A stretch of DNA of 64,000 nt from Silvibacterium dinghuense (GCF_004123295.1 NZ_SDMK01000001.1:1488001-1552000), one strand, 5' to 3'; shown: positions 2,581-25,864, counted from the stretch's first letter. Made by a program: numbers and translations. The notes: a model not told the origin generated them from the sequence alone.

Positions 2581-2582
2581 TC

Positions 2583-3308: not shown

Positions 3309-3315
3309 GGAAGAT

Positions 3316-3963: not shown

Positions 3964-3985
3964 ACTCCCCGGGGCCCGATCCGAC

Positions 3986-11309: not shown

Positions 11310-13103
11310 CTACTCCAGCCTCCGCCGACGAGGCTTATTCGGATCTTCGCCGCCCAGCGTCGATGTGGATGACGATTCGCGCGGCATCCACGGTGGCTGC
11401 ACGTGCGGCGTGGGCTGCAGACCTGGAGGCGAAACGGTAGATGTCGTGTGCAGATCAGGAAGCCGGCTTTCTTCCGCCGCTGCCGGCGGCACTTCAGAAC
11501 GTCGTCCGCCATTGGCCGACCCGGAGCTGAAGCCGGATGGCTCGGAAGGCGTATCACGCTCGAGGATGCGTGCGGGCTGCTCACGCTGTCCTGCATAAAA
11601 GCGATGACGGATGAAGAGCAACGCCGTGTGCACCGTGTGATAGGCCGGCACGGTGACGCGAACATCCGTAATGGTCGGGACATCCGGCGCCTGGAAGTCG
11701 AGCTCGATGTTGTACTGGTCGTCCTGGCGCACATCGCCTGTAAGGATCAGGCTCTCGCGACGGAATCCCGACCCCTCGTTGAGGCGGATCTCGGCGCCGA
11801 TGGATGTGCCGCGCACCCATGGGGCATTGCGATCGCCGATCAGAATCAGCCGATAGCGGTCGCGACCTTCCAGGCGCAGGTTCGAGAAGAAGATCGTCAT
11901 CTCGTCCGCAATGCCCTGCACACGCGCCGGACGCGCCGCCAGCTTGTACAGGGCCTTGCCGCCGCGATCGAAGATGAAGTTCGTGCTTTCGAGCGTGTTG
12001 CTCTTGCGGAAGTCGATGTACTTGCCTTCGAGCGCGCGCTCGAGACGCTCCAGGCCCACCAGGGCAGCCGTCGCTTTGCGCACCTCCAGGCCAAGGTCTT
12101 CCTCGAGCCGCAGCGTGCGGCTGAGCTGCAGCGTGTGCTTCTGCTGCTCAATCAGGCCGAGCCACTCGGTCTCGCCCGTGTCGCGCAGCGTGTCGTAATA
12201 CGTCTGCATCCCAGGCGCGAGATCGAAATAGATCGCCGCCGAGTGCAGCAGTTCACGCACGCGGCCAAAGAACTGCGCCGGCGTCTGCGTGCGCTCCAGC
12301 AAGGCATAGGAGGCATTCTGCAGCTCCAGCACCATCCGCTCCGCAAACTGCATTGAGTCACGGTCGACTTCTGTTTCAAGACCACGCTCGGTAAAGAGCA
12401 CCATGAACTCGCGCATGGCCCGGTGCAACTCCGCATAGCCGGCCGCCAATCGCTGCACGGCTTCGAGGATGCGGCGCGTGCCGGTCATCAGCTCCGAGTG
12501 GCTCGATACGGCAACGCAGGGCGGAATGTACTGCACGTCCGCTTCAAAGCTCATGCCCGTCGCCGGCCGCTTCACACGCCCCACGGCGAGCGCCTGCGCC
12601 CGCTCAGCGGCATTCACGCTCAGCGCAACACGGTAACTCGGCGCCCGCTCGCTGTGCATCTGCGGATTGAAGCTGTCGACGGCGCCATCCACTTTGACGC
12701 GCTCGGCGGGATCGCAGACCACATACACCACCGCCTCGGCCACGCCGGCGAGCTGATCCTTTGGAACACGCACGGAGATGGCATCCCCACCTTCGATGTC
12801 TACGATCAGCCCCGACGGTGTCAGCCCTCGCGCCCGCTGCACCGCGACATCGAGGTATTCGGCCGTCTCATGCAGAGCGACTTCGGGATCGAAGCGCACG
12901 GTGCCCAGATCCGCCTCCGGCATCCGCACACCACCACCGACGAGACCTGCGGCCCGGTTTAGATAAGTCATCCCCCACATCGCCAACGATGCGAGGTACC
13001 GCTCCTGCCGGAGAAGATGATCCGGCGTAAGCAGCATGCCATGTTCCCAGTTCACAGACCGCAGGTAGAGTTCCGTTCCGGCATCCGGTCGGCGTTGGTT
13101 CAT
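11310..13103 (-). CDS. tssK: TssK-like baseplate protein with long disordered tail
   Basis: The 597-residue protein begins with the TssK signature around SVNWEHGMLLTPDHLLRQERY (residues 16-36), followed by the beta-rich neck and helical shoulder regions. TssK links the TssF/TssG wedge to the membrane complex. Usual TssK proteins are about 440-450 residues. This one is longer, mainly through a C-terminal tail from about 508 rich in Pro, Ser, Thr and Glu, ending in a basic RRRR cluster. The normal TssK C-terminus contacts the TssL anchor, which is not found here, so the tail may serve a different docking partner (inference). A GGGAG site precedes the ATG. Confidence 0.85.
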   Translation of the reverse strand: MNQRRPDAGTELYLRSVNWEHGMLLTPDHLLRQERYLASLAMWGMTYLNRAAGLVGGGVRMPEADLGTVRFDPEVALHETAEYLDVAVQRARGLTPSGLIVDIEGGDAISVRVPKDQLAGVAEAVVYVVCDPAERVKVDGAVDSFNPQMHSERAPSYRVALSVNAAERAQALAVGRVKRPATGMSFEADVQYIPPCVAVSSHSELMTGTRRILEAVQRLAAGYAELHRAMREFMVLFTERGLETEVDRDSMQFAERMVLELQNASYALLERTQTPAQFFGRVRELLHSAAIYFDLAPGMQTYYDTLRDTGETEWLGLIEQQKHTLQLSRTLRLEEDLGLEVRKATAALVGLERLERALEGKYIDFRKSNTLESTNFIFDRGGKALYKLAARPARVQGIADEMTIFFSNLRLEGRDRYRLILIGDRNAPWVRGTSIGAEIRLNEGSGFRRESLILTGDVRQDDQYNIELDFQAPDVPTITDVRVTVPAYHTVHTALLFIRHRFYAGQREQPARILERDTPSEPSGFSSGSANGGRRSEVPPAAAEESRLPDLHTTSTVSPPGLQPTPHVQPPWMPRESSSTSTLGGEDPNKPRRRRLE

Positions 13104-13187: not shown

Positions 13188-14144
13188 TCAACACACACGC
13201 ACACCTGAGCCCTTGCCCATGTGCGTATTCACTCCGAGGCGGCTGTTCGCACCGATGACACCGAGCTGCGGCGGCTGCGTACGATCCTGCACAGACCAAT
13301 GCACCTCGTAGTCATGCAGCATCGGCATCAGCAGATACAGCAGGCGGGCCAGCAATGCCGCGCCTTCCTCCGACTCTGCAAAACGCTCGTAAACATCCAA
13401 AGGCACCGGCCCTATTTCGATCACCACCGTCGACAGCACCTCGATCGCGTCTCCGATGACGAGATTCGTACCGAGCTGCGATGAGCGGCTGCCAAGCAGG
13501 GACAGCGCGCTTTCCGGCAGTGGCTGATGTGTCGGCCTGTACGCAGTGCCGCTCACCGGTAACCCCAGCACAGAGCCAAGCACAATGGCGCAGCCATCGG
13601 GACGGCAAGAAAGCCCGGGAAGATCGGCGACGAGAGAGGCCAGCGGAAACCAGAGATCGCGAGGCCACTCCTCCGCACGCAGGCCGAAGAGCGACAGCCA
13701 GCGCGCACAGGCCATCTGGTCATCGGGCGAAAGGCGGAACATCGGCGCACCTTCACGAAACCAGTGACGGAGCTTCTCAAGCGGATCATCGAGCGGCGAC
13801 AGAATCTCGCGAGTGCCTGGCGTACGCTCTCCGCCCGAGTCCCACATGCCAACCGGAAGCGCATGCGTAAAACCCAGCCCTGCGATTGCCAGTTCGATGC
13901 GCACATCGTTGGTCAGCGGTGTGCCGGGTGAGGGCTGCTGATGAATGACCATGCCATCGGCATGCGCGCTGCGGCCCGCGCGCAGCAGGGTGATGCGCTC
14001 AGGCATGATGCCCATGGCGGCCAGCGAGAACAATGCGGAATCGACGGTGTGTGCGAAACCATGCGTGCCGCGCTCGAAGCACGGCATCAACGGCGCGTTC
14101 TGTACAACGGCGAGGGCATCAAGAGGAGCCGATGTCAGTTCCAT
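13188..14144 (-). CDS. tssG: TssG-like baseplate protein
   Basis: The 318-residue protein fits TssG, the gp53-like wedge component of the T6SS baseplate. It opens with a helical segment typical of the family and has LSPLDDPLEKLRHWFREGAP and a short beta-rich C-terminal half containing LGSRSSQLGTNLVIGD, matching the LG-rich TssG pattern. It overlaps the end of tssF by ten bases, as usual for a tssF-tssG pair, supporting stoichiometric translation. No unusual insertions are seen. Sequence resemblance is moderate and the call leans partly on gene order. Confidence 0.8.
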   Translation of the reverse strand: MELTSAPLDALAVVQNAPLMPCFERGTHGFAHTVDSALFSLAAMGIMPERITLLRAGRSAHADGMVIHQQPSPGTPLTNDVRIELAIAGLGFTHALPVGMWDSGGERTPGTREILSPLDDPLEKLRHWFREGAPMFRLSPDDQMACARWLSLFGLRAEEWPRDLWFPLASLVADLPGLSCRPDGCAIVLGSVLGLPVSGTAYRPTHQPLPESALSLLGSRSSQLGTNLVIGDAIEVLSTVVIEIGPVPLDVYERFAESEEGAALLARLLYLLMPMLHDYEVHWSVQDRTQPPQLGVIGANSRLGVNTHMGKGSGVRVC

Positions 14145-15823
14145 AGAAACTGCACCTCCAGATCGACTCCCTGCACCAGGCGGCCGCGCAGCGTGACTTC
14201 TACCTGCGACTTCAATGCGGGCAACTCTACCTCAGGCCGGCTGAAGCCATGCGGGTCCAGTGTAAGACTCAACCTCTCCACGCGGCGCAATCCGCCCTCG
14301 CGGCGCTCTACGCCGGAGCTCGCGGCCGCGGCCAGGATGCGCCGATCGATAGCCAGCGCAGCGGTTTCAAGATCGGCACGCGTCACAATGCGTCCGCGCG
14401 TCAGCAGAGCATTTGCAAAACGCCGCTCTTCGGTCGGCAAGGTATCGCCATCCGTGCCGCCGGACGCCGCAGTGAGAGGCGCTACATGCAGCCCTGCCAG
14501 CGCCGCACTGGCAAAGCCCGTGATGTCGCCAGGTCCCACAGAATTACCCAGATGTCCGTTGGTGAGCCATAGGCGGATATTCGCAGCAGTGTCGCGCATG
14601 CCGTTCTCTCGCGCTCCGGGAGTGAGCGTCAGGCGTCCATTCGAGAGCTCATACCATCCGGCTGTGGAGCGTGTGCGTGGCCGTGTTCCACGATCATAGG
14701 GCTCGTTCTCGATACTCATCACCGTCAGAGGAGCAACAAGATGCTCGGGGACGCCGCCCGCTTTGCTGATGGGAAACGATGTGCCGTCCTGCGCGAAATG
14801 AACCGTCTGATTGCGCACAAAAACATTGGATGCGGTCATCGCATGGAGCACGATACCGCTGATGGCGTGATGAAGCGCAGGCACTCCGGGCGGCATCGGA
14901 ATCTTGATCCAGAAGCGCGGCTCATGGAAGATCTGCGAGACATCCCGATTCACCAGGCGTGCCATTGCAGGTTCAAGCAGCCGCGGCACTCGGCAGAGCA
15001 GATTCTGCTCCGCGCTCATGCTGGGGAAGACAAACTGACGTCCAGCATAAAAGCCATCCGGAATGCTCGGACGTGCAGAGGCTGCGTGATTTTCTGTACG
15101 AGCGAGATCGCCATAAAAGCGGAGCTGCATCAGGCCGGCATTGATCCGTTCCGGCCGCATCAGGCCACTGGAAGAAAGCTCTCCGTCGCTGCCGAAGATC
15201 CACCACGGCTCATGCGCAAGTGCGTGCTGCACGGCATAAGTTCCCGGGCCTAACTCAAAAAAGAGCCCATGCCGGCTGAGCAACTGCGGCGACAGATTCT
15301 CCACCGCGAGATAGAGCGCGGGCTGCGGCCCGAGCTGGATGGGCACGGTGTCGAGCGATGGGCGCGCCGCCTGTACGTCTTCGCTCATCTCCACGCCCGA
15401 AAGTATGCGCAGAGACTGATCCTGATAACTCAGTGCGAGCGCAATGCGAGCGCGCGAAACGTCGACAGCGGCATCGAGGCTGAAGATCAGGCGCTCGCCG
15501 GAAGAAGCCACGGCATTTAGTTCGGTTCCCGCGCGCAAGGTACGCGGCTCATCGCGATCCTGCACCAATCGCACGACAGCCTGTGCGGGACGCGCGAGAT
15601 ATTGCTCCATGTGCAGGCCCTGCATCAGCTCATGTAGCAGCGAGACACGGAGCTGAGCCGTATCGCTGTAAACTTCATCGATCTGTTGCGCCACCGTACG
15701 AAATAGCACAGCCAGGAGAGGATCGGTGGTGTCCGTGCTGACGCCGTAGTCACGGACCCTCCTGCGAAAATCCTCGCGAAGCTTGCGATCAATCTCGAGC
15801 ACTGTGGGGGTTTGCAGATTCAA
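14135..15823 (-). CDS. tssF: TssF-like baseplate wedge protein
   Basis: The 562-residue protein is a TssF homologue, the gp6-like core of the baseplate wedge. The N-terminus has the characteristic helix with DPLLAVLFRTVAQQIDEVYSD and a following ELMQGLHMEQYLARPAQAV region, then beta-rich segments (RAGTELNAVAS). The start is a TTG at 15823, chosen because AGAGGA sits five bases upstream and no ATG near the conserved N-terminus exists. It lies 26 bases after tssE and overlaps tssG. TssF is usually somewhat longer than this (around 580-620 residues), so the protein is compact but complete. Confidence 0.85.
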   Translation of the reverse strand: MNLQTPTVLEIDRKLREDFRRRVRDYGVSTDTTDPLLAVLFRTVAQQIDEVYSDTAQLRVSLLHELMQGLHMEQYLARPAQAVVRLVQDRDEPRTLRAGTELNAVASSGERLIFSLDAAVDVSRARIALALSYQDQSLRILSGVEMSEDVQAARPSLDTVPIQLGPQPALYLAVENLSPQLLSRHGLFFELGPGTYAVQHALAHEPWWIFGSDGELSSSGLMRPERINAGLMQLRFYGDLARTENHAASARPSIPDGFYAGRQFVFPSMSAEQNLLCRVPRLLEPAMARLVNRDVSQIFHEPRFWIKIPMPPGVPALHHAISGIVLHAMTASNVFVRNQTVHFAQDGTSFPISKAGGVPEHLVAPLTVMSIENEPYDRGTRPRTRSTAGWYELSNGRLTLTPGARENGMRDTAANIRLWLTNGHLGNSVGPGDITGFASAALAGLHVAPLTAASGGTDGDTLPTEERRFANALLTRGRIVTRADLETAALAIDRRILAAAASSGVERREGGLRRVERLSLTLDPHGFSRPEVELPALKSQVEVTLRGRLVQGVDLEVQFLWN

Positions 15824-15849: not shown

Positions 15850-16212
15850 TTAGGGGTCCAGCGTGAGCATGGTGGTCAGTGTGTCGGCTGCGCCACCTTC
15901 GAGCAGCACAGCATAGGTATCTGTCTCGCGCCCCGGACTCAGCTCCCGAGTCACTTCGACGACGCGAAACTCATCGATGCCGAGATCCTGCAACGTTGTA
16001 TTGATGCGTTCCATCATCAAACGCGGCGTATCGGCACGCTGCCGATGCATCTCGAAAAGATCGCGCAGCCCAAAGGAAGGACAGCCGCGCCATGAGCCCT
16101 GCGGCGTGCGGGCCATGACCTGCAGCAGGCCAATGAGTCCTGTTGCGCGGTCCTCGCGACGCAGTAAACCGCTCTCTCCGAGCCTCATCGGGAATGCGAT
16201 GGATTGCACCAA
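15850..16212 (-). CDS. tssE: TssE-like gp25 baseplate protein
   Basis: The 120-residue protein matches the gp25/GPW lysozyme-like fold family that initiates sheath assembly at the baseplate. Features are an N-terminal FPMRLGESGLLRREDR segment, then FGLRDLFEM, RLMMERINTTLQDLGI and a C-terminal strand region with REL and TYAVLLEGG. Length is normal for TssE. It is placed between hcp and tssF, a common order. Conservation at the sequence level is modest, but neighbours leave little doubt. Confidence 0.82.
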   Translation of the reverse strand: MVQSIAFPMRLGESGLLRREDRATGLIGLLQVMARTPQGSWRGCPSFGLRDLFEMHRQRADTPRLMMERINTTLQDLGIDEFRVVEVTRELSPGRETDTYAVLLEGGAADTLTTMLTLDP

Positions 16213-16283: not shown

Positions 16284-16733
16284 TTAGTTGCTCAGCGAAA
16301 TATCGCTGAAGTTCTGCTGGTTCATTGCCGGCTCGAGATCCAGCACCAGCACATGATTGATGCCGGAGTGGTCGGTCGAGCTGAGCTGGTCTTCGCTCTG
16401 GTAGGGATTGAGCGTATGGAAACCGCTGATCCAACCGTTGAACGTGTATGAAGCCAGCGCATCCTGGTGCGAGTCGTCCTTCCAGAATTCCAGCTTGATG
16501 GACTTGACCTTGTCACGCGTCACCACGTTTGCCAGATTGAACAGATTGCTCATCGTGGAGTACGGCATGTTCTGGTCATCGTGAAAGTCCACATACGCGC
16601 GGATGGTGGTCGAGAGCGAACCCATCTGCGGCATGCCGGCACGATCCTTTTCGGTTGAGAAGGCTACGGAGACGGAGAGACAATCGAACTGCTGGCCGTC
16701 GATGGTGCAGGTGCTGCGATACGGTGCTGCCAT
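16284..16733 (-). CDS. hcp: Hcp / TssD-like inner tube protein, copy 1
   Basis: A 149-residue tube protein, predicted to stack as hexameric rings that carry effectors and are expelled on sheath contraction. Conserved segments shared with the adjacent copy are QMGSLSTTIRAYVDFHDD, LFNLANVVTRDKVKSI, FWKDDS and a C-terminal VLVLDLEPAMNQQNF. It resembles the TssD form of Hcp seen in Bacteroidota-like systems more than the classical proteobacterial Hcp, an impression from memory rather than an alignment. It lacks the ten-residue loop insertion present in copy 2. No signal peptide, as expected. Confidence 0.85.
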   Translation of the reverse strand: MAAPYRSTCTIDGQQFDCLSVSVAFSTEKDRAGMPQMGSLSTTIRAYVDFHDDQNMPYSTMSNLFNLANVVTRDKVKSIKLEFWKDDSHQDALASYTFNGWISGFHTLNPYQSEDQLSSTDHSGINHVLVLDLEPAMNQQNFSDISLSN

Positions 16734-16803: not shown

Positions 16804-17280
16804 TTAGTTGCTCATCCTTACGTCCTGGAAGTTCTGCTGATTGAGCGCAGGCTCCAGGTCGAGTACGAGCATATGATTCAGCTTGGGCGCGGCGCCTTCC
16901 GCCAACTGATCTTCGGTATTCACCGTGGCTGCCTTGGGCAGAAAATCCAGCGGGTTCGAGGTTTCAAAGCGTCGAATCCATCCATTGAAGCTGTAGGACA
17001 CCAGCGCATCCTGCTGCGAGTCGTCCTTCCAGAATTCGATTTTGATCGACTTGATCTTGTCGCGTGTCACCACGTTCGCCAGATTGAACAGGTGCTGCAC
17101 GGTGGCAAACGGCAGATTGACATCGTCATGCAGGTCGGCCCAGACACGAATCTTCGTCGAAAGGGATCCCATCTGCGCAACGCCAGAGCGGTCCTTCGAT
17201 GTACTGAACTTCACACTCGTGGTCACAGCCTGGAACTTCTGGCCGTCAATTGTCACAGTTGCGCGGTACGGATTTGCCAT
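16804..17280 (-). CDS. hcp: Hcp / TssD-like inner tube protein, copy 2
   Basis: A 158-residue paralogue of the neighbouring Hcp; by eye more than half of the residues are identical, including FNLANVVTRDK, KSIKIEFWKDDS and LVLDLEPALNQQNF. The main difference is a roughly ten-residue longer loop around DFLPKAATVNTEDQLAEGAA, in the region that forms the extended inter-ring loop in Hcp structures. Two tube proteins could form mixed tubes or carry different cargo. The 70-base gap between the two copies carries an independent ribosome site. The pair most likely arose by tandem duplication. Confidence 0.85.
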   Translation of the reverse strand: MANPYRATVTIDGQKFQAVTTSVKFSTSKDRSGVAQMGSLSTKIRVWADLHDDVNLPFATVQHLFNLANVVTRDKIKSIKIEFWKDDSQQDALVSYSFNGWIRRFETSNPLDFLPKAATVNTEDQLAEGAAPKLNHMLVLDLEPALNQQNFQDVRMSN

Positions 17281-17340: not shown

Positions 17341-17709
17341 CTATTCCGAAGAGCCAGTGCCTCGAAAGAGGGTTTTCAGCCGGTCTGTAAACCCTTGCAA
17401 CAGTCCGGCAGAGGGGGGATTTGGACTACCACCGCGTTCTTCAGCAGCCCAGGAAGAGTTCAGGGGCGTCTCCGCTTGAGGGACCGCTCTTATCTGCTCT
17501 TTCGATGTTTCGCTTCGTGCATCGCGAAGCGGGGTCTCCGGTGTCGGGGTGTGGTCTTTATCCGTGCGAACCACACGCCCGCCCTGTGCGCGCAGCGAGA
17601 AGCCTGGTCTTTGCGTGGAGATCGGAGCAGCAGCACGCTTCTCCTGCTCCGCGGCGCGCGCAGCTGATCCTGCGAGCCCCGGCTCTACCTTAAAACGCAG
17701 TTCTTTCAT
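17341..17709 (-). CDS. Small disordered hypothetical protein between hcp and tssC
   Basis: I place the start at the ATG at 17709 (MKELRFKVEPG), 29 bases after the tssC stop and preceded by a purine-rich GAGAG; the longer frame to 17778 would overlap tssC. The 122-residue product is rich in Ala, Pro, Arg, Ser and Glu, with no hydrophobic segment, and looks disordered apart from a possible C-terminal amphipathic helix (AGLLQGFTDRLKTLFRG). No family is recognised. In position it could be an assembly factor for tube or sheath, but a non-functional frame cannot be excluded. Confidence 0.5.
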   Translation of the reverse strand: MKELRFKVEPGLAGSAARAAEQEKRAAAPISTQRPGFSLRAQGGRVVRTDKDHTPTPETPLRDARSETSKEQIRAVPQAETPLNSSWAAEERGGSPNPPSAGLLQGFTDRLKTLFRGTGSSE

Positions 17710-17737
17710 GAGGTTTCTCTCTGTGCAGGACGATTGT

Positions 17738-19078
17738 CTACCGGTTAGATGCTTCCTGACGTGAAAATTCTGGGACATCTATCTTCAGCACAAAGGTTTC
17801 TGCGGGGCCTGTCGGCATCACGTTCAATGTGATGTCGCAGATACCTTGCATGCGCTTGTTGGAGTCCTTGTCGACAAAGAGGTCATAGCCAAGAATCGTG
17901 CCTTGCTCTACCTGTTCATCGAGCAGACGCTTCAACGGTGTTTCGATCTGCTGATCCATGAAGTCGCGCGTCAATACTTGTCCTGCGACCTGCAGCAGAT
18001 AGTGACGGCAGCAACGCTCCAGATAGCGCAGAATGCGATACGAAGTGAAAAACTTCAGCACGCCGTAAGGATCGTCAGCCTGCGTGCGGCAACCGAAGAA
18101 GCACAAATGATTGTCTGCATCGCGAATAATCGGGATCAGCTGGCGCTCCATCGAGAGATGCTCCATCTCGCCGATCAATGGCTCGATACGCGCCTTGGCG
18201 ACACCGTTGACGCGGCCGAAACGCGAGCCCACGGGGCCCTGCGCCATGCCCTGCGCATCGTCTGCACGCGCTACAGCGCCGGCGAAGACCAGCGACGGCG
18301 GAGCATAGAGGCCCTCGTTGCTGTCCGCATCTTTTTCAAACCAATGTGCTGGCCGAAGCTGCAGATAGCCCATCAGGCAGACGTCCGCCGCAGCTGCATC
18401 TTCAGGACGCTTGAGAAACTCGTACTTTCCTCCGGGAAGGAAATTACGCTCTACGTTCTTGAATGATTTTTCGTCGTCCAGGTCGCCGATCAACAGCATG
18501 CCCCAGGCATTTGCCAGCTGCTCCAGCTTTTCGCGGATGGGCTGCGGATAATAACCCGGCACAACGATGTTGCAGATATCGTCGCGGAAATTGAAGTTAT
18601 CGTTACGCTGCACCACAAAGTGCTCCATGGCAGCGAGATTCATGGAGAAGATATCCTGCATCGCAGTGGAATCTGCATTCAGGATGAACAGCTCCACCGG
18701 CTTACGGATCTTGCCGTCCCCCACCTTGGTGTTCTCGAAGAAGAGCTGCAGCTGGCGATAGCTGCGCTCCAGCGGGCGGATCTGCTCGTAAACCTGCGTA
18801 AGCAGTTCATCACGGACTTCCTCTGCGCTGTCGATCTGGGTCTGGAGCTTCTTGACCGTCTGATCGTATGTATCTTCGGCACTGATCAGCTGTTCGAAAT
18901 TGGTTAACTGCGCAAGAAATTCTTTCGCGGACTGCGAAGTAAAGATGCTCGCCAGCTCACGCTTCTCGTTGGTGAGGCCGGGGTGCAGGTCGGCGAAGAT
19001 ATCCTGCAGCAACTCGCGCGCGGGGCTATTACCAAGCAGCTGTTCGGTGGTGCGGCTTGCGGTTTGCATTTCGGACAT
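17738..19078 (-). CDS. tssC: TssC-like large sheath protein
   Basis: The 446-residue protein is the large contractile sheath subunit, pairing with TssB. Supporting segments are FEQLISAEDTYDQTVKKLQTQID near 60-85, MLLIGDLDDEKSF, WFEKDADSNEGLYAPPSLVFAGA and a C-terminal RILRYLERCCRHYLLQVAGQVLTR followed by LFVDKDSNKRMQGICDITLNVMPTGPAE (quoted here only as landmarks near the end). This is somewhat shorter than classical TssC (about 490-500). It starts two bases after the tssB stop. The sheath is the ClpV substrate in the cytoplasm. Confidence 0.85.
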   Translation of the reverse strand: MSEMQTASRTTEQLLGNSPARELLQDIFADLHPGLTNEKRELASIFTSQSAKEFLAQLTNFEQLISAEDTYDQTVKKLQTQIDSAEEVRDELLTQVYEQIRPLERSYRQLQLFFENTKVGDGKIRKPVELFILNADSTAMQDIFSMNLAAMEHFVVQRNDNFNFRDDICNIVVPGYYPQPIREKLEQLANAWGMLLIGDLDDEKSFKNVERNFLPGGKYEFLKRPEDAAAADVCLMGYLQLRPAHWFEKDADSNEGLYAPPSLVFAGAVARADDAQGMAQGPVGSRFGRVNGVAKARIEPLIGEMEHLSMERQLIPIIRDADNHLCFFGCRTQADDPYGVLKFFTSYRILRYLERCCRHYLLQVAGQVLTRDFMDQQIETPLKRLLDEQVEQGTILGYDLFVDKDSNKRMQGICDITLNVMPTGPAETFVLKIDVPEFSRQEASNR

Positions 19079-19080
19079 AG

Positions 19081-19584
19081 TTACTCCTTCCCTTCAGCAG
19101 CCACACGCTCCAACTCGGTGCGGAGCTTGGTGAGCGCATTCACAATTTCGGCACGCTGCGCTGGATTCGTCCATGCGCGGCGAACGGCGGGCAGCTTCCA
19201 CCGGTCTTTGAGGCGATAAAGCAGGTCGATGTTCGCTTTCAGATCCGCAATATCGTTGCGAAGATAGGTGACATTGCCTTCGTCATCGCGAACTTCCTGC
19301 CGCTTCTGCAGATTCTCCGGATCGAAGTCCTTAAGAGAGCGGAATTGCACCTCCGCGCGAAAAGCCGTTTCCTCTGGCCCCGCGGTGCCGGTGAATTCGA
19401 GCTTGGGCTCGAACTTGCGAAAGGCATCCGTTAGATCTTCCACCTTTACGAGCTCTTCGTTCTCGGAGGAGACTTCGCCGCCCACACGCTCCAGGGTCAT
19501 GGGTAACATCGCCGCGGCCGTTGAGGTCGGCACCTTCCGAACCGACGGCGTCACTCCTTTGCGTACGACTTTTACTAGGGGCAT
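19081..19584 (-). CDS. tssB: TssB-like small sheath protein
   Basis: The 167-residue protein matches TssB in size and layout. A basic N-terminus is followed by a central LEFTGTAGPEETAFRAEVQF strand region, FRSLKDFDPENL (the family landmark) and C-terminal helices with LLYRLKDRWKLPAVRRAW. It forms heterodimers with TssC that make the contractile sheath. It is directly followed by tssC (two-base gap) and preceded by the VWA gene with 12 bases between, so all are on one transcript. Confidence 0.87.
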   Translation of the reverse strand: MPLVKVVRKGVTPSVRKVPTSTAAAMLPMTLERVGGEVSSENEELVKVEDLTDAFRKFEPKLEFTGTAGPEETAFRAEVQFRSLKDFDPENLQKRQEVRDDEGNVTYLRNDIADLKANIDLLYRLKDRWKLPAVRRAWTNPAQRAEIVNALTKLRTELERVAAEGKE

Positions 19585-19596
19585 GTGGGCTATCTC

Positions 19597-21051
19597 CTAT
19601 TGATTAGCGGATTGAATGTGGGTACGGGGCTGAACCTGAGTCGTCTGCGAGGCCGAACGCTGAAGCGGCGCGCTCGCTGCACCAGGTCCGCCAAAACCGG
19701 AAGGCATGTTCGCTGAACGTATCTGCACGCCCGACGCAGAGGTGACCGCCGGCCGTTCGCTGCTCCACTTGCGCGGGCGGCCCTGCAGGGGACCGAGATT
19801 CCGGTCCGCCCAGACCAGGCGCGGAACCCAGAACCACAAGGCCACGAGCAACGCGGCAAGTGCCACTACGAGAATGAAATGAAAGAGGATTGCCGACCAT
19901 CCGGCATCTGTGGGCGGATTTGCCGCCATCAGCGCATTGAGCTCCGCATCGGCGGCCTTGCGGTCATAGACCGGAGCGCCGGTGGCAGGACCGACCATGC
20001 GCACGACATCACCGGAAAGCACCTGGCCACCATCCAGAGTCAACTCCGGTGTCCAGGCTGGATCACGGCCCATCAGGCTCAGGCGATTATTCTCGGGCAG
20101 CAGCCACGTTATCTGAATCTCGTGGGTGGTCGCAGAGCGTGTGGTGTGAAGCGCGTCGAGCAACTGCCCGGCATCGGAAGCAAAGAGGAAGCGCGTCGAT
20201 AACTTCTGCATCGCAGCGGCGTCGATCACATTCTTGTCGCCGAAACCGATACCGATTACATCGAAATGCGAGTTCTGCACCTGCGCGATCGCCTGCTGCA
20301 GACCCAGCGCGCCATCGAGCAACTGCGGATCGTCCCCAGGCTTCACCTCATTCTTGCCGTCCGTCATGACGACCAGATGCGGCTCCAGTTCGTCACGGGA
20401 TATGCCCTTGCGCTGCAACTGATCGATCTCATCCTGCAACGATTGCACGCCGCTAAAAACCGCCTGGTAAAGCGCAGTGTTATTGGCAGGAGCCGGCGCA
20501 GGCAGAGCGTTGAGCTGATTCAGCAACTCAGGCTTCTGTGTCGCGTATACCGCGGCCTTGATTACCGGCACTACATCATGGCTCTGGAAGGGAACAATCG
20601 CGATATGGTCGAGCCCTGGCTGCATGCCATCCGCAAACGCAGTCACAGCTTCCTTCACCGCGGCGAAGCGGCTCGTGCTTCCCGGTGCAGGCTGATTCAT
20701 ACTGCCGCTGATATCCACCATCAACAGCACCACGTTCTGGCGCTGCGCACCTGCCGAGCTGAGCCCAGCGCTCGCATAAAAGGGATGCACAGAGGTGCCA
20801 TCACCATTACGAAGCGTAATGGCAGTAGGCAATGCCGCGGCCACGGGAATATTGACGCGAGCAGGTTGCCCGTCCTTATCCACCGGCGTGATGCCTGCGG
20901 TCATGCATGGCTGCTGGCTAACCGGCGCGCAGTCCACCAGTGCAGGCTGCGTGCTGACACGCAGGTGCAGATCGGCAGTACCCTGCTGCGCCTGGGCCGC
21001 GAAGAAGGTGGTTGCGCTCAGGAAACCGAAGAGCACGGAGAAACGGCGCAT
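19597..21051 (-). CDS. Membrane-anchored periplasmic VWA-domain protein
   Basis: Start chosen at the ATG at 21051 because an excellent AAAGGAGG lies just upstream and a signal peptide (MRRFSVLFGFLSATTFFAAQA) begins there. The 484-residue protein has a von Willebrand factor A domain from about 105 with the MIDAS motif DISGSM near 113-118, a following Thr in NNTALY and the Asp in VVMTDGKNE. Near the C-terminus a transmembrane helix (WSAILFHFILVVALAALLVA) leads to a Gly/Pro/Ser/Gln-rich cytoplasmic tail of about 70 residues. MIDAS domains bind metal-dependent protein partners. It lies one base after the FHA-like membrane gene and before tssB, so it may bridge the sheath machine to the envelope (inference). 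Confidence 0.8.
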   Translation of the reverse strand: MRRFSVLFGFLSATTFFAAQAQQGTADLHLRVSTQPALVDCAPVSQQPCMTAGITPVDKDGQPARVNIPVAAALPTAITLRNGDGTSVHPFYASAGLSSAGAQRQNVVLLMVDISGSMNQPAPGSTSRFAAVKEAVTAFADGMQPGLDHIAIVPFQSHDVVPVIKAAVYATQKPELLNQLNALPAPAPANNTALYQAVFSGVQSLQDEIDQLQRKGISRDELEPHLVVMTDGKNEVKPGDDPQLLDGALGLQQAIAQVQNSHFDVIGIGFGDKNVIDAAAMQKLSTRFLFASDAGQLLDALHTTRSATTHEIQITWLLPENNRLSLMGRDPAWTPELTLDGGQVLSGDVVRMVGPATGAPVYDRKAADAELNALMAANPPTDAGWSAILFHFILVVALAALLVALWFWVPRLVWADRNLGPLQGRPRKWSSERPAVTSASGVQIRSANMPSGFGGPGAASAPLQRSASQTTQVQPRTHIQSANQ

Positions 21052-21052
21052 G

Positions 21053-22003
21053 TTAAGCGCCTCCTTTCTTGCTCTCAAAGCGCAATGCTGTGCGGCCAAT
21101 CAGGATGTCGTCGGAGGGATGCAATTCCTGAGAGCCGACAACGGTTTTGCCACGGGCACGCAGCACATACTTAGCGATCCCTTCCGGACCGCCTACATCA
21201 GGGTGCCGCGCAATAAAGTAACGTCCCTCACGCGAGAAGACCACGGCATGGCGCGGAGCAATGGCTACGTCGGGAACGCTGATATCGGCGCCCTGCTGGA
21301 ATTTCGTGCCATTCTGTGCCGTCGTTGCGCTTCCGATCACGTAGGACTCATCGATATCGAGCGCCCACAACTTACGCTCTTTGCCTAACTTATTTTGTGC
21401 GCGCGCATCGCCAGAGCTGATGAAACGCAGAGAGCCTTCGCGGATCAGGGTAGGAGCGATGCCCGTTCCAAAGCCGGTGCCGGCTCCTGCGAGCATCAGT
21501 CCGGCAATCGATGCGCCACCGGGGATATGCGGGCCAAAGAGAACGAACATGGCACCACCCAGCAATCCACCCACCAGGCTTCCCGAATAGGTATGCAGCA
21601 CACGTGCGCGGTTGGAATTCGCCCAGCGCAGGCCTATGCCCAGACCGATGACCGAGATACAAAGCGCCCACACCGCGAGGCGGAACAAAGAAGGCGAGGT
21701 ATCCGCAACAGCATGATGCAGGCCAATCGACAGGAGAGCAGCGAGGATGCCCGACACGCCGCCGAAAAGCAGCCCGTAACCAAGAGAAGCCGCGCGCATA
21801 CGCCCCAGGAGAATGCGGTCGAAGTAGAGAAAAAGCGCAATAGAGATGATGACCGCAAAGCATCCCAGATCGACGGAGTCAGGCAGGTATCTCAGGCCGC
21901 TATCGGCAAGAGGCACCATAAACAAAATGCCCAGCACGGCCGCCAGGAGTCCGCCGAGAGTACCCATCAGGGTCGCAAAGTAAAGGTTTATATATCCGTA
22001 CAT
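21053..22003 (-). CDS. Multi-spanning membrane protein with C-terminal FHA-like domain
   Basis: The 316-residue protein has about six hydrophobic segments in residues 1-185, including Gly-rich helices such as LVGGLLGGAMFVLFGP and LMLAGAGTGFGTGIAP. A C-terminal soluble part (about 215-316) resembles an FHA fold: YVIGSATTAQNG, then ISVPDVAIAPRHAVVFSREG and DILIGRTALRFES. The canonical Arg of the phosphothreonine pocket is not obvious, so binding may be degenerate. It is the first gene of the minus-strand secretion operon, 127 bases from the divergent ubiquitin-like operon. With the VWA protein it forms a candidate membrane complex in place of TssL/TssM (inference). Confidence 0.72.
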   Translation of the reverse strand: MYGYINLYFATLMGTLGGLLAAVLGILFMVPLADSGLRYLPDSVDLGCFAVIISIALFLYFDRILLGRMRAASLGYGLLFGGVSGILAALLSIGLHHAVADTSPSLFRLAVWALCISVIGLGIGLRWANSNRARVLHTYSGSLVGGLLGGAMFVLFGPHIPGGASIAGLMLAGAGTGFGTGIAPTLIREGSLRFISSGDARAQNKLGKERKLWALDIDESYVIGSATTAQNGTKFQQGADISVPDVAIAPRHAVVFSREGRYFIARHPDVGGPEGIAKYVLRARGKTVVGSQELHPSDDILIGRTALRFESKKGGA

Positions 22004-22024
22004 GAGCGAAAAATGAATTGCGGT

Positions 22025-22052
22025 TAGCTATCCTGGCATCTCACCAGGTCAA
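22025..22052 (-). promoter_or_regulatory. Candidate promoter of the minus-strand secretion operon
   Basis: Reading the minus strand, TTGACC (22052-22047) and TAGCTA (22030-22025) are separated by 16 bases, about 20 bases before the ATG at 22003. No strong Shine-Dalgarno precedes that ATG. The same 127-base gap must also hold the promoter of the divergent operon. A TATAAA at 22115-22120 lies about 10 bases before the GTG at 22130, which would fit a leaderless or near-leaderless transcript. Confidence 0.35.
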
Positions 22053-22129
22053 AATAATATCGCCGTTACGTTACAAAAGGCGCATATCGAGTGTGGTTAG
22101 AGTAGTGCGTTGGTTATAAAGTTGTCTGG

Positions 22130-23314
22130 GTGCTGAATTTATTTACAAGGACAACTGACATCACACCTGCTCCGTATCCCGCGAAAGAACGCTCTTTGCG
22201 GATCGTGCTGGCAGGCGCGGGTGCCTTGGGTTCCGCAGTACTCTATCAGCTGACAAAGCTGCGCCCCGCGTGGCTCACTTCCGTACTTCTGGTCGACCCG
22301 GATCAGCTCGAAGAACGCAATATCGCTCTCAGCCGATTCTTTCAGCAGGCAGCCTCATCTCAGGGGCAAAGCATCCTGACCAAGCCCAAAGCCGAAGTTT
22401 TATCAGCAGTCATTAATGATTCCGCAACCTTTTCCTGTGAAGCTGAAGTACGCGAGATTGCCGACGTAGGCTGGCAGCGGTTACGCGAGGCCGATATGCT
22501 CCTCTGCTGTGCAGACGATCCTTTAGCTCGCCTTGAAACAGCGCAGGCTGCCCGCGCACTGGGCCTGCCGCTGATCGATATCGGCGTCTTTGGCGGTGAG
22601 GAACTGCATCGTCCCGCAGGGCGAGCCCGGGTAACCTATTTTGCGCCAGATAACTTAGCCGCCTGCCAGCTATGTGGCCTAAGAGAAGATCGCAGGGCCG
22701 AGCTGCTGAGCTTTGCCGCAACCCGCTCACCCGGCTGCCGTCCGTTGCGTGCGCCGGAATCGCTTGGCCAGGCTGCGGCTCCGCCGCCGGCTATCGAAGC
22801 TGCCGCTACGGTTGTTACGGAAATTATCGAAGATTTCATAAGTTACTCCGAATCCGATCCCCGCTATCGCCATTCCTGGACCGTCAATCCGGCACATGGC
22901 GACCATTTGCCGCATGCACCGCGGCACTTACTTACGCGCAGCATCTCATGTCCATGGCACGAGGATGAGCCTGGCGGACTTATTGCGCTCGAGGACGATC
23001 GTCAGCTCGGAGACAGTCTGCACGCCGCTGCTCCCGACCAGCACTGGCGCATCCAACTTGCCTGGCCGGTGTGTATGGAAGCCCAGTGCCGTCATTGTGG
23101 AACCGTGCAGAGGACAGCACAGCGCCTCGCGGCGTTACGCCGGAGCGGGGGCTGCATGCATTGCGGAGTCACAGGAGAGATGGAACCGCGCCGCATCGTC
23201 AGCTCGCTCGGCACGCAGGATGCCGAAGCCTCGCTCACCCCAATGGAACTGGGGTTACCCCGCAGCCATATGGCGCGCCTGCGCCGCGTCATCTCGTTAG
23301 GAAGTGCGTCATGA
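22130..23314 (+). CDS. E1/ThiF-like ubiquitin-type adenylating enzyme with zinc ribbon
   Basis: A 394-residue protein with a GTG start. It has the ThiF/MoeB/E1 nucleotide-binding fold: RIVLAGAGALGS (Gly-rich loop 29-34), LLVDPDQLEERNIALSR with Asp56/Asp58 and Arg69, Lys85/Lys87, and CCADDPLAR with Asp129/130. These are the residues that bind ATP-Mg and adenylate the C-terminal Gly of a ubiquitin-like protein. A CxxC pair (179/182) and Cys203 follow, Cys203 being a candidate transthiolation cysteine. The C-terminal part has a zinc ribbon-like quartet Cys320, 323, 342, 345. It is the first gene of a five-gene operon whose other members supply the ubiquitin-like protein, E2-like and RING-like partners. 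The specific substrate is inferred from this context. Confidence 0.85.
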   Translation: MLNLFTRTTDITPAPYPAKERSLRIVLAGAGALGSAVLYQLTKLRPAWLTSVLLVDPDQLEERNIALSRFFQQAASSQGQSILTKPKAEVLSAVINDSATFSCEAEVREIADVGWQRLREADMLLCCADDPLARLETAQAARALGLPLIDIGVFGGEELHRPAGRARVTYFAPDNLAACQLCGLREDRRAELLSFAATRSPGCRPLRAPESLGQAAAPPPAIEAAATVVTEIIEDFISYSESDPRYRHSWTVNPAHGDHLPHAPRHLLTRSISCPWHEDEPGGLIALEDDRQLGDSLHAAAPDQHWRIQLAWPVCMEAQCRHCGTVQRTAQRLAALRRSGGCMHCGVTGEMEPRRIVSSLGTQDAEASLTPMELGLPRSHMARLRRVISLGSAS

Positions 23315-24048
23315 ATCCCGGGCTCGAACGCTGGACAGCATTGAGTGGATTATTGCTGCTGTTAGCCTCTGCACAATTCTTCTGCTGCCTCGGAGGAGCG
23401 GCACCGGCACTCCCTGCCAGCCTGCTGCTAGGTGCCGGCGTAACGTGGCTGATCTTTCGCGCTTTTGCCCCGGTTACGCTGTGGGCAGTTCCGCTGGCCA
23501 TTACTTTTACCGACTTAGCAGCCATTCTCATCGCCGAGCTTGGACTTAGGCCATCGTTCGCCCTCTGGTTCTGCCCACTGCTTGCCGGCGGAACGTCGCT
23601 CGCTACCCTTGTGCTCCTGCGCCGCAACCAGGCAAAGTGCACACTCTGCCATCGTCATCTCAGCCGGCAGGCCGTCGTCTTCCGCTGCCCTCGATGCCAG
23701 AACGAGGTCTGCGATGAAACCTGCTGGAGCTTCGAACATCGACGCTGCCAGCTCTGCCTGGAACAGCGCGTTCCGGTGTTGCCGATCAGCGATACATGGT
23801 GGCAGAAGGTAACCGGCCCGCGGATGATGCATGGCCGCTGCCAGCTCTGTCTTGCAGCGCCGGAAACCGCCGATTTGCGGGCCTGTCCACGCTGCCGTCG
23901 CGCACAGTGCCGCTCCTGCTGGGACTTTAACAACGGAGAATGTGCACGCTGCGGGGAGACACTGCCGGAACTTCCTGCATCCCTTACTATTGCGATGGCC
24001 AAGGTGGCTAGCGCATACACCACAGGCTCCACACCATCCCGGATATAA
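23311..24048 (+). CDS. Membrane protein with two RING-like zinc modules (candidate E3-like)
   Basis: The ATG overlaps the E1 stop (ATGA), so the 245-residue protein is translationally coupled. Residues 8-103 contain three to four hydrophobic helices. Two eight-cysteine modules follow. Module 1: C110-x2-C113, C126-x2-C129, C134-x3-C138, C146-x2-C149. Module 2: C177-x2-C180, C192-x2-C195, C200-x2-C203, C211-x2-C214. The spacing and the conserved CW after the sixth Cys show an internal duplication. The pattern fits cross-brace treble-clef/RING domains such as the Pfam Prok-RING families. RING domains recruit E2 enzymes, so next to E1, Ubl and E2 genes an E3-like membrane-tethered role is plausible but unproven; a structural zinc adaptor is the alternative. 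Confidence 0.75.
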   Translation: MNPGLERWTALSGLLLLLASAQFFCCLGGAAPALPASLLLGAGVTWLIFRAFAPVTLWAVPLAITFTDLAAILIAELGLRPSFALWFCPLLAGGTSLATLVLLRRNQAKCTLCHRHLSRQAVVFRCPRCQNEVCDETCWSFEHRRCQLCLEQRVPVLPISDTWWQKVTGPRMMHGRCQLCLAAPETADLRACPRCRRAQCRSCWDFNNGECARCGETLPELPASLTIAMAKVASAYTTGSTPSRI

Positions 24049-24070
24049 CCCGGACAAAGGAATAGCTTCG

Positions 24071-24331
24071 ATGCCTAAGTATCAAATGTACTTTGACACC
24101 ATCAGTGGTGAGACTAAGTACAATGTCGACATCGACGAGACAGAAACCCTGACCATGGTCCTTGAGGAAATCCTCTACGACCTGCGTGAGCGGGGCGAAG
24201 TATTGAAGGGAGACGGCGAACCGGAAGTGATCTGGGACGGCTCCAGTCTCGATTTTGCCACTCCGCTCCCGGAACAGGGCGTACACCCCAACGATGTCCT
24301 CCGTGTATCGACCATTGCCAGCAACGGCTGA
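24071..24331 (+). CDS. Ubiquitin-like beta-grasp protein ending in glycine
   Basis: An 86-residue protein; the ATG at 24071 is preceded by AAAGGA. The longer upstream frame overlaps the RING-like gene and is a shadow. It shows the beta-grasp layout: strand pair (KYQMYFDTISGETKYNVDI), one long helix (TLTMVLEEILYDLRERG), then strands with EVIWDGSSLDFATPL, EQGVHPNDVLRVSTI. The GxxL and GVxPxDxLRV pattern is shared with ubiquitin and YukD/EsaB-type proteins. The last residue is Gly86 (IASNG), so no processing protease is needed to expose the glycine that an E1 would adenylate. It lacks a di-glycine. Its stop lies inside the start region of the E2-like gene. Confidence 0.82.
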   Translation: MPKYQMYFDTISGETKYNVDIDETETLTMVLEEILYDLRERGEVLKGDGEPEVIWDGSSLDFATPLPEQGVHPNDVLRVSTIASNG

Positions 24332-24857
24332 ACCTCCGGCAGCCTCCCTGTGGGCCACGCGGCTCGCAGGAGAATGGCGCCTGCTTGCAGCTCTTGCCGA
24401 GCTGAATCCTGAACGTATGACTGGCCTGCGGCAGGAAGACAACACCTTTCATCTCACCCTGCGAGATGTCCCCGCACTCACGCGGAGCGGCGGCATCGAA
24501 CGTACTCACGCATTGAGAATCGAGTTCCCCGAGTACTTTCCTGCCATGCCGATGGAACTCTATCTTGACCGCCCCATGCAGCACCCCAATATCCATCCAG
24601 ACACTGGCTTTATGTGCCTGTGGGACCGGCATCGCGCCACACATACCTGCGAGGTAGCCCTGCATAAGGCAGTAGCCATTCTGACCTGGACCCTGCACAA
24701 TTCCGCGCAAGTGCATGTGATGCAGCCAGCTGCGCTGGCCTCCATGAAAGAGAAGGGTGATAGTGTGCGAGCGCAGCTCGCCTGTACGCCTCTGACAGGA
24801 CTTACTCCTCCAGTTATGTCTCCGGTTACGATGCCGCGGCGCCGGAGACTTTCGTGA
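24294..24857 (+). CDS. E2-like ubiquitin-conjugating enzyme (UBC fold)
   Basis: I prefer the ATG at 24294 (187 residues), overlapping the Ubl gene by 38 bases; an in-frame ATG at 24255 is the alternative. The core matches E2 enzymes: IEFPEYFPAMPMELYL (the FP-x-YP-x-xP region), then QHPNIHPDTGFMCLW, which gives the HPN motif at 97-99 and the predicted catalytic Cys108 in the CL position. A helix with AILTWTLHN follows, like the post-cysteine helix of UBC domains. A second Cys at 119 and a Pro/Arg-rich tail are extra. The enzyme would accept the Ubl as a thioester from the E1 and pass it to a target. The stop overlaps the kinase GTG (GTGA). Confidence 0.82.
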   Translation: MSSVYRPLPATAEPPAASLWATRLAGEWRLLAALAELNPERMTGLRQEDNTFHLTLRDVPALTRSGGIERTHALRIEFPEYFPAMPMELYLDRPMQHPNIHPDTGFMCLWDRHRATHTCEVALHKAVAILTWTLHNSAQVHVMQPAALASMKEKGDSVRAQLACTPLTGLTPPVMSPVTMPRRRRLS

Positions 24858-25864
24858 TCCAGATGCTCAATCTCGGCCACTCAGGCAGTACGCCATCCCA
24901 AGGCTCGGAATCCATGCCCGATCAAGCGGCCAGCCCATCCGGGGAACGTATGAGCAGGGAACGCATGAGAGAGCTGCGCAACCTCGCCCTGGAGATGCAA
25001 TCCCTTCTCGGCGCGCGATGGGAAGTGCTCGACTGCCTCGCGCTTGGCGGCATGGCGACCATTCTGCAATTGCGTCATCGCATCCACAAAGGCTTATTTG
25101 TTGCCAAGGCGCTGCGCCCCGAGCTGGCAGACCGGCCGGAGATTCTGCGCAGCTTTCATGCCGAGGCACGGAATGCCTCGCTCGTCGGCGGCCATCCGAA
25201 TGCTGTACCGGTTTTCGATGTGCTCGATGCAGGCGGGCTTCCGGTGCTGCTGATGCCCTTCATCGAAGGAGAGGACCTGGACGCTTTCATCCAGCGGCAT
25301 GGGCCTCTTTCCCGCATCCAGACGCTGCAATTTGCGACGCAGATCAGCAGCCTGCTCTGCCATGCGGAGTCGTATGGCATCTCGCACGGCGATCTCTCTC
25401 CCGGCAACATACGCCTCGACCAATTCGGCCGCTATCGCGTATTGGATTTCGGCCTGTCGCGCATGCAAAACAACGACGACCCCTATCAACCGTTTTCCGC
25501 CGGCACGCCACTCTATACGAGCCCCGAGCAGCTTCGTGGCGAAGCTCCGGACATACGTACCGACCTGTACGAGCTGGGTCTTGTGATCGTGGAAGTCATG
25601 ACTGGGAAACCGCTCATGCAGGCTGACTCCCTGAAGGCAATCCGTCAGCGCCACCTGGATGGCATCTCCGCTCTGCCTGCGGCGATCGAAGCGGATGCCC
25701 CGCTTGCACGCTTATTGCGCCGTATGCTCGCCCGGGAACGCAGCGAGCGCCTGCGTGGCGCAGCGGAACTTTCACGCGCGCTCGAGCAGCTCGGCTTTCA
25801 GCCGCAAGAGCTGATGCGCCCCGACGCAGCGTCCACGCGGCGCGGTCGAATCTCCACGCGATAG
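24854..25864 (+). CDS. Ser/Thr protein kinase (Hanks type), soluble
   Basis: A 336-residue kinase with a GTG start overlapping the E2 stop, hence in the same operon. Motifs: glycine loop LALGGMATI (62-70), VAK with Lys85, Glu104 in the C helix, catalytic HGDLSPGN (178-185, Asp180 and Asn185), DFG at 198-200, SPE at 223-225 and DLYELG. The HRD Arg is replaced by Gly, so it is a non-RD kinase and may not depend on activation-loop phosphorylation. About 50 N-terminal residues before the domain look flexible. No transmembrane segment is present, unlike PpkA. Its likely reader and eraser are the FHA proteins and the PP2C at 5689 (inference from locus). Confidence 0.92.
   Translation: MIQMLNLGHSGSTPSQGSESMPDQAASPSGERMSRERMRELRNLALEMQSLLGARWEVLDCLALGGMATILQLRHRIHKGLFVAKALRPELADRPEILRSFHAEARNASLVGGHPNAVPVFDVLDAGGLPVLLMPFIEGEDLDAFIQRHGPLSRIQTLQFATQISSLLCHAESYGISHGDLSPGNIRLDQFGRYRVLDFGLSRMQNNDDPYQPFSAGTPLYTSPEQLRGEAPDIRTDLYELGLVIVEVMTGKPLMQADSLKAIRQRHLDGISALPAAIEADAPLARLLRRMLARERSERLRGAAELSRALEQLGFQPQELMRPDAASTRRGRISTR

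Follow-up and report, generated by a model that had tools for sequence, protein, structure and literature searches.

A 64,000-nucleotide stretch of the genome of the soil bacterium Silvibacterium dinghuense (GCF_004123295.1, NZ_SDMK01000001.1:1488001-1552000; hereafter the window) carries, at 22130-25864 on the plus strand, a five-gene cassette encoding an E1-like enzyme, a RING-like membrane protein, a ubiquitin-like modifier (Ubl) ending in Gly, an E2 enzyme and a Ser/Thr kinase. This is the gene set that an initial annotation, made from the sequence, had described. This content supports a full E1-E2-Ubl cascade, accompanied by a kinase and by a RING-like protein of the membrane, with no JAB gene; the pattern is far beyond chance. 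The cassette lies divergent from a type VI secretion system (T6SS) locus. We propose that it is a Ubl conjugation pathway dedicated to one T6SS type in the Acidobacteriota, acting at the inner membrane under kinase and PP2C phosphatase control. We hold this reading to be probable, with real room for doubt, and its activities are predicted from sequence and from modelled structures.

What ties the cassette to the T6SS? Genomes of the order and GTDB contigs were searched, and after removal of duplicates 27 distinct relative loci were left, all in the Acidobacteriota once one metagenome-assembled genome labelled Arcobacter is taken as misassigned. The GTDB contig scan used short peptide patterns and may miss divergent Ubls in other phyla; genes in the relatives were called by a simple script (longest open reading frames and a GC3 score), and their starts are approximate. 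In all 25 loci that could be tested, the cassette adjoins two genes of the T6SS locus, one encoding TM-FHA, a multi-pass membrane protein with an FHA-like domain, and one encoding a vWA-domain protein; the other two of the 27 are cut by contig ends. The sheath gene tssB was found in 24 of the 25, the contig of the remaining locus (L060) stopping short of it. In the Acidobacteriaceae the cassette and the TM-FHA/vWA genes are divergent; a rearrangement in the Bryobacteraceae, through which the linkage was kept, has the cassette upstream of them by a few kilobases and in the same orientation. The locus labelled Arcobacter (L059, Arcobacter sp. SulCav_AS07-7_66_22) is of the Bryobacteraceae type, and the label looks wrong.

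Co-occurrence, counted in genome samples of one order and one phylum, is equally strict. At E 1e-14 or better, the cassette E1 is found in 15 of 200 genomes sampled from the order; the same 15 and one more have the TssC of this T6SS type. Thus 15 of 16 genomes with this TssC have the cassette, as do 0 of the 184 others (Fisher p 1e-21). The sixteenth genome (G177) was dropped as a true exception, its TssC being encoded on a broken contig of 4,270 bases. In a sample of 396 genomes of the phylum, close relatives of the Ubl and of this TssC are found in five genomes, the same for both; a weak TssC match (G381, 22% identity) was not counted, being taken for another system. The TssB+C tree and the tree of the four cassette proteins have 14 of 19 splits in common. 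Clades A and B do not follow genus boundaries, and in one Granulicella genome (G083) a T6SS of each type is present, either one accompanied by a cassette of its own. The cassette therefore follows the T6SS and not the host. The Ubl-TssC distance correlation is 0.93. The association of cassette and T6SS is not a product of chance, and the conserved linkage on which the initial annotation had staked its interpretation is borne out by the loci and the genome counts alike.

Within the cassette, adjacent genes overlap at three of four junctions: by ATGA between the E1 and RING genes, by 38 bases between the Ubl and E2 genes (with the ATG at 24294) and by GTGA between the E2 and kinase genes. These overlaps had been noted correctly; overlap at every junction, as first claimed, does not hold, since 22 bases separate the RING and Ubl genes. 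The ratio of nonsynonymous to synonymous substitution rates is 0.02-0.36 in six pairs of close relatives, and all cassette genes are therefore under purifying selection.

The E1 contains one ThiF domain only (Pfam ThiF, E 3.6e-9). Its family profile matches E1 structures in the PDB, namely UBA7, the NEDD8 E1, MoeB, ThiF, BubCD and Cap2. Across 26 homologues, Gly29, Gly31 and Gly34 of the GxGxxG motif, Asp56, Lys87, Asp129 and Arg134 are invariant, and these include nucleotide-binding residues. Also invariant are Cys179, Cys182, Cys203, the C274-P-x-H277 motif, Cys320, Cys323, Cys342 and Cys345; CPxH and two CxxC motifs make up a C-terminal zinc-binding region. Cys203, the putative catalytic residue, sits where the E1 cysteine (crossover-loop) is expected. 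The E2 matches Pfam UQ_con at E 2.3e-5, slightly under the curated cut-off, and no PADLOC or NCBIfam family. Its AlphaFold2 model (pLDDT 90) has the UBC fold, with VIA Z scores of 12.0 to Ube2S and 11.9 to Ubc9, and among the matches listed the structure search returned E2-fold proteins only. The putative catalytic residue is Cys108, accompanied by an HPN motif (His97-Pro98-Asn99); Cys108 and Asn99 are invariant in the 26 homologues, and in the profile alignment GFvCL is matched with the GaiCL of the E2 active site.

The Ubl profile gave no meaningful match to PDB sequences or Pfam, and no PADLOC or NCBIfam family was found, so that the fold of the Ubl is seen through its structure model only. 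The AlphaFold2 model (pLDDT 87.6, with residues 84-86 disordered) has the ubiquitin fold, with VIA Z scores of 11.0 to SUMO2 and 10.3 to the Ubl domain of EccD5 of ESX-5. Thus the beta-grasp and UBC folds, whose absence the initial annotation had named as fatal to its proposal, are both present in the predicted structures. The Ubl is 64-84% identical to 14 relatives. In all 15 aligned sequences Asn85-Gly86 is invariant and Gly86 is the last residue, whereas residues 82-84 vary. No residue follows the reactive Gly, and the Ubl would thus need no processing protease, that is, no JAB for its maturation. No relatives of the Ubl were found in viral contigs or plasmids.

The RING protein has a hydrophobic N-terminal half with about four helices by hydropathy, followed by a presumably cytosolic C-terminal part with two RING-like (treble-clef) zinc domains. 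Its 16 Cys residues, in two clusters, are invariant in 26 homologues. The protein scores below the curated cut-off of Prok-RING_2 (PF14445; E 0.0018, 18.8 bits against 22.4), a family that covers operon forms with membrane RING proteins; 14 of the 26 homologues match it, at best with E 4.5e-5, and matches to Prok-RING_1 are weak. By profile, the second zinc domain matches the RINGs of NOT4, RLIM and Arkadia at E 0.005-0.013. Neither PADLOC nor NCBIfam has a family for the protein. We infer from these sequence features that it may serve as the E3.

The absence of a JAB gene from the cassette was stated at the outset and stands; the genome has a single Prok-JAB gene, next to a MoeB/ThiF-like gene some 0.53 Mb from the cassette. 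That it serves the cassette in trans was judged unlikely, given that neighbour. A JAB gene does occur in a relative from another acidobacterial family. This locus (L070:4313-9041, genome G416) encodes on one strand a PP2C, an E1, a RING protein, a Ubl-E2 fusion, a JAB protein, TM-FHA and a vWA protein. It shares with the window cassette the order E1, RING, Ubl, E2 and the TM-FHA/vWA partners, and differs in the fusion, in its JAB and in the lack of a TssC match anywhere in the genome, which is 90% complete. The Ubl-E2 junction, YEGGGSLRDD, contains GGG, and the JAB protein (Prok-JAB, E 7.5e-12) has a C-terminal transmembrane segment. Because this locus pairs a Ubl-E2 fusion with a JAB, it supports true processing and transfer of the Ubl. 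Because TM-FHA and the vWA protein, with PP2C, stay with the cassette where TssC is missing, they would be its permanent or direct partners rather than the sheath.

A more distant JAB-bearing cassette is found on plasmid pCRI9333.03 of Crinalium epipsammum (L087:4245-9463), where genes for an E1, two similar Ubl-like proteins (one ending EGGY), an E2 and a JAB protein adjoin conjugation genes, with a gene for a type IV secretion system coupling protein beside them. Its E1 is homologous to the window E1 over nearly the full length (hhalign 99.8%, E 4e-30), the Cys203 region aligning with the Crinalium E1 cysteine. The E2 proteins are weakly homologous, and no alignment was obtained between the Crinalium and window Ubls. 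TM-FHA gave no match in plasmids.

The features of the window discussed here are collected in the following table.

Table. Genes and intergenic region of the cassette and of the neighbouring T6SS locus (window positions).
Feature	Position	Strand	Size, assignment
E1-like activating enzyme	22130-23314	+	394 residues; ThiF/MoeB-type adenylation domain
Membrane protein with two RING-like zinc domains, E3 candidate	23311-24048	+	245 residues
Ubl, beta-grasp	24071-24331	+	86 residues; AlphaFold2 model
E2 (UBC) enzyme	24294-24857	+	187 residues; UQ_con, AlphaFold2 model
Ser/Thr protein kinase	24854-25864	+	336 residues; Pkinase
Divergent intergenic region, cassette/T6SS operon	22004-22129		126 bases; sequence
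TM-FHA, multi-pass membrane protein, C-terminal FHA-like domain	21053-22003	-	FHA E 0.035, weak
vWA-domain protein	19597-21051	-	VWA E 8.7e-12
TssB sheath subunit	19081-19584	-	T6SS_VipA E 0.0014, weak; adjoins TssC
TssC sheath subunit	17738-19078	-	Pfam TssC E 7.4e-22
Two Hcp-like genes	16284-16733, 16804-17280	-	Inferred from position and mutual similarity; no Pfam match
TssE	15850-16212	-	Weak TIGR03357
TssF	14135-15823	-	Position only
TssG	13188-14144	-	E 7.9e-16
TssK (VasE)	11310-13103	-	E 8e-8
ClpV-type AAA+ protein	8571-11306	-	Pfam AAA_2 E 1.2e-50, Clp_N
FHA protein with transmembrane segments	6433-8571	-	FHA E 4.7e-16
PP2C phosphatase	5689-6414	-	PP2C_2 E 5.7e-14
VgrG-like spike gene	1018-2580	+	Phage_base_V E 1.7e-26, Phage_GPD E 5.5e-12

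The divergent locus described as T6SS-like is real. The operon runs on the minus strand from 22003 down to 5689, with TM-FHA first and PP2C last, and comprises tssBC, two hcp-like genes, tssEFGK, clpV and the FHA and PP2C genes; the VgrG-like gene and its associated genes (1018-5649, plus strand) are convergent with it. The sheath, baseplate, spike and ClpV gene set is thus present in the window, with Hcp and TssF assigned by position only. Identity to relatives is 55-82% for TssB and 66-90% for TssC. By eye, the vWA protein seems to begin with a signal sequence; hydropathy indicates a transmembrane helix at its C-terminus. The only invariant Lys of TM-FHA is Lys205, close to where the membrane region ends; all 25 sequences have it, among them that from the genome lacking TssC. 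Two smaller observations concern the operon. A 145-residue open reading frame of uncertain gene status lies between the hcp-like genes and tssC (17341-17778), overlaps the end of tssC and has 32-38% identity in a few relatives. The FHA protein at 6433-8571 also matches, in its N-terminal part, the 3-keto-disaccharide hydrolase (LamG-like) family, which is odd for a T6SS FHA protein.

With respect to the membrane complex, TssL (DotU, PF09850) and TssM (IcmF, PF06761) gave no match in the whole genome. Among 19 further cassette-bearing genomes, 14 are without TssM and 13 without TssL; where present, the genes lie on a different contig or at a great distance from the cassette. In the Granulicella genome with two Ubl-linked T6SS loci, tssL and tssM genes are found in a third place, apart from both (C1:3554769-3557719), and a canonical T6SS may coexist there with the Ubl-linked ones. 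Candidates for the anchor in the window would be the multi-pass TM-FHA, the vWA protein, the FHA protein and the RING protein.

The kinase (Pkinase, E 2.7e-27; no transmembrane helix predicted by hydropathy) adjoins the E2 downstream in clade A loci and in the Bryobacteraceae. The initial annotation had singled it out as a special feature; its presence stands and its singularity less so, since it resembles the threonine-phosphorylation control of T6SSs, with PP2C and FHA proteins, and is absent in one clade. By genes, the Ser/Thr kinase, PP2C and FHA set required for such control is present at the locus. In one clade B locus (L043:7422-8159), a calcineurin-like phosphoesterase (metallophosphoesterase) gene follows the E2 gene in place of the clade A kinase, and the other clade B loci (L044-L048, L062-L069) have an open reading frame of similar size after the E2. 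In Bryobacteraceae (L055:10786-16433, L057 and L061), the stretch between E2 and TM-FHA encodes a fusion of a kinase with an FGE-sulfatase domain, a pair of small proteins (the one tested being DUF4384) and a caspase (C14)-TPR protein; the caspase-like protein within a T6SS/Ubl locus is unexplained.

We propose the following mechanism. The E1 would adenylate Gly86 of the Ubl and then hold the Ubl as a thioester on Cys203, from which it would pass to Cys108 of the E2. The membrane RING-like protein, acting as E3, would direct the Ubl to a component of the site in the inner membrane where the T6SS is assembled, the TM-FHA/vWA pair being the most probable recipient. Transfer of the Ubl would license or stabilise the assembly of a machine built without the TssL/TssM anchor, and control by phosphorylation, of the kind known from the T6SS threonine-phosphorylation pathway, would come on top through the kinase, PP2C and FHA proteins. 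That conjugation takes place, what it targets and how it affects assembly are predictions from sequence and modelled structures; within them, Lys205 of TM-FHA is put forward as a candidate conjugation site only. The initial annotation's suggestion that the pathway acts on parts of the injection machine, on effectors or on envelope proteins is likewise a prediction. In a more specific version, for a T6SS that lacks TssL and TssM, TM-FHA (perhaps through Lys205) or, in the manner of Atg8, a lipid would receive the Ubl from the RING protein, and the attached Ubl would recruit the baseplate, so that conjugation itself builds the membrane docking site; this version is speculative and we give it a low probability. 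If true, it would describe a bacterial secretion machine whose assembly depends on ubiquitin-like conjugation.

Several points weigh against the proposal of a dedicated conjugation pathway. Clade B operons are without the kinase, and kinase control is thus not universal. The assignment of the RING domains is weak by sequence. YukD, a similar Ubl in type VII secretion, is reported not to be conjugated (PMC1779556). Lastly, the JAB-bearing acidobacterial locus without TssC means that the T6SS tie is not family-wide, and the association is a trait of the Acidobacteriaceae and Bryobacteraceae lineages.

The YukD report bears directly on the main alternative, in which the Ubl acts non-covalently, as a structural part of the secretion machine or an aid to its assembly, in the YukD/EccD manner, and the E1, E2 and RING proteins are scaffolds, or conjugation has been lost. 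The fold match to EccD5 favours such a role, as does a Ubl conserved like the sheath proteins, both in its identity to relatives and in its distance correlation with TssC. What it leaves poorly explained is the invariance of the ATP-site residues of the E1 and of the putative catalytic cysteines of both E1 and E2, a terminal Gly that is invariant and last while its neighbours vary, and the retention of a JAB beside the Ubl-E2 fusion. We regard this alternative as unlikely. It is also unlikely, and slightly more so, that T6SS cargo (effectors, Hcp or VgrG) is what the pathway tags, or that the pathway is itself injected, with the Ubl serving as a loading mark or acting in target cells: hcp-like and vgrG-like genes are closely linked to the cassette, but the partners kept at the locus lacking TssC are the membrane proteins TM-FHA and vWA, not cargo, and the RING protein is predicted by hydropathy to be membrane-bound.

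Could the cassette be an anti-phage operon of the Bil, CBASS (cyclic-oligonucleotide-based anti-phage signalling system) or Bub kind that adjoins a T6SS by accident? Other bacterial E1-E2-Ubl operons act in defence or are associated with it, and the window E1 weakly matches PADLOC E1-E2 models. A mobile defence island would not be expected to show essentially complete linkage and co-occurrence with one T6SS type and largely agreeing trees; moreover, among the genes adjacent to the cassette none was recognised as a nucleotidyltransferase, a JAB or a known partner in defence, the Ubl and E2 have no PADLOC model, and viral contigs and plasmids yielded no Ubl relative. Defence is accordingly an improbable function. 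A sulfur-carrier pathway of the ThiF/ThiS or MoeB/MoaD type, to which the ThiF/MoeB fold and zinc-binding cysteines of the E1 might point, is very improbable: the cassette has an E2 and a RING-like protein, full-strength ThiF/MoeB genes lie elsewhere in the genome (one beside the sole JAB), and no sulfur-metabolism genes were recognised near the cassette. The reading that we prefer is that of a conjugation pathway devoted to the T6SS.

The known roles of bacterial ubiquitin-like cascades are mostly phage defence or are open, and the targets of most predicted operons are unknown. Here, strict linkage names the process served, a single conserved T6SS type, and so makes the search for a target tractable; Granulicella mallensis and Edaphobacter modestus provide a culturable test bed. 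The cassette is also a possible answer to how a T6SS without TssL and TssM is anchored or switched on.

How does the cassette compare with known systems? At the T6SS itself, PpkA, PppA and Fha control assembly in Serratia, where phosphorylation of Fha is required (PMC6082577). The window locus has the corresponding kinase, PP2C and FHA proteins, to which it adds a ubiquitin-like cascade, and the kinase is gone from the operon of one clade. Bacteroidota T6SSs without TssJLM use other proteins, TssNQOPR (PMC10781749); they are like the present T6SS in being without canonical membrane-complex genes and differ in phylum and in the candidate membrane proteins, which here are those named above. The YukD/EccD systems likewise link a ubiquitin-fold protein with secretion machinery, in some cases together with a Ser/Thr kinase; their partners are an FtsK-like ATPase and ESAT-6 proteins, and neither was found among the scanned neighbours of the cassette, which has an E1 and an E2 instead.

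The Bil (BilABCD) systems share with the cassette a bacterial E1-E2-Ubl set. They have a two-domain Ubl, a JAB (BilC), an E1 with two adenylation domains (BilD) and a CEHH-type E2; the JAB, the second adenylation domain and the second Ubl domain were not found in the window cassette. CBASS Cap2/Cap3 and Bub share the ThiF-type E1 domain. Type II CBASS combines a CD-NTase with a Cap2 that fuses E1 and E2, whereas the window E1 and E2 are encoded by separate genes, the Ubl is free with a C-terminal Gly, the context is a T6SS and no nucleotidyltransferase was recognised among the scanned neighbours. Predicted prokaryotic E1-E2-Ubl-JAB operons have been described (Iyer 2006, PMC1779556), and the window cassette resembles them in its one-ThiF E1, its UBC-fold E2 with HPN motif and Cys, its beta-grasp Ubl and its Prok-RING-like membrane protein. 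Of the features of such Aravind-type operons, it has the E1, the E2 with its Cys and the Ubl with its C-terminal Gly, and lacks the usual, perhaps not obligatory, JAB; it differs further in a Ubl that ends exactly at Gly, in its strict T6SS tie and in the kinase and PP2C at its locus. E1-E2-Ubl operon forms with transmembrane RING fingers are reportedly treated in Burroughs 2011, which lay outside the open literature we searched; within that literature we found no paper linking such a cassette to a T6SS. Bacterial E1-E2-Ubl(-RING) operons are thus already known, and the JAB-less, T6SS-bound form with kinase, PP2C and FHA proteins appears to be new. Bil and CBASS, named in the initial annotation, are not the nearest kin. 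The JAB cassettes of the distant acidobacterium and of the cyanobacterial plasmid are closer, and the Ubl-E2 fusion form of the former suggests one route from a JAB-dependent to a JAB-free system.

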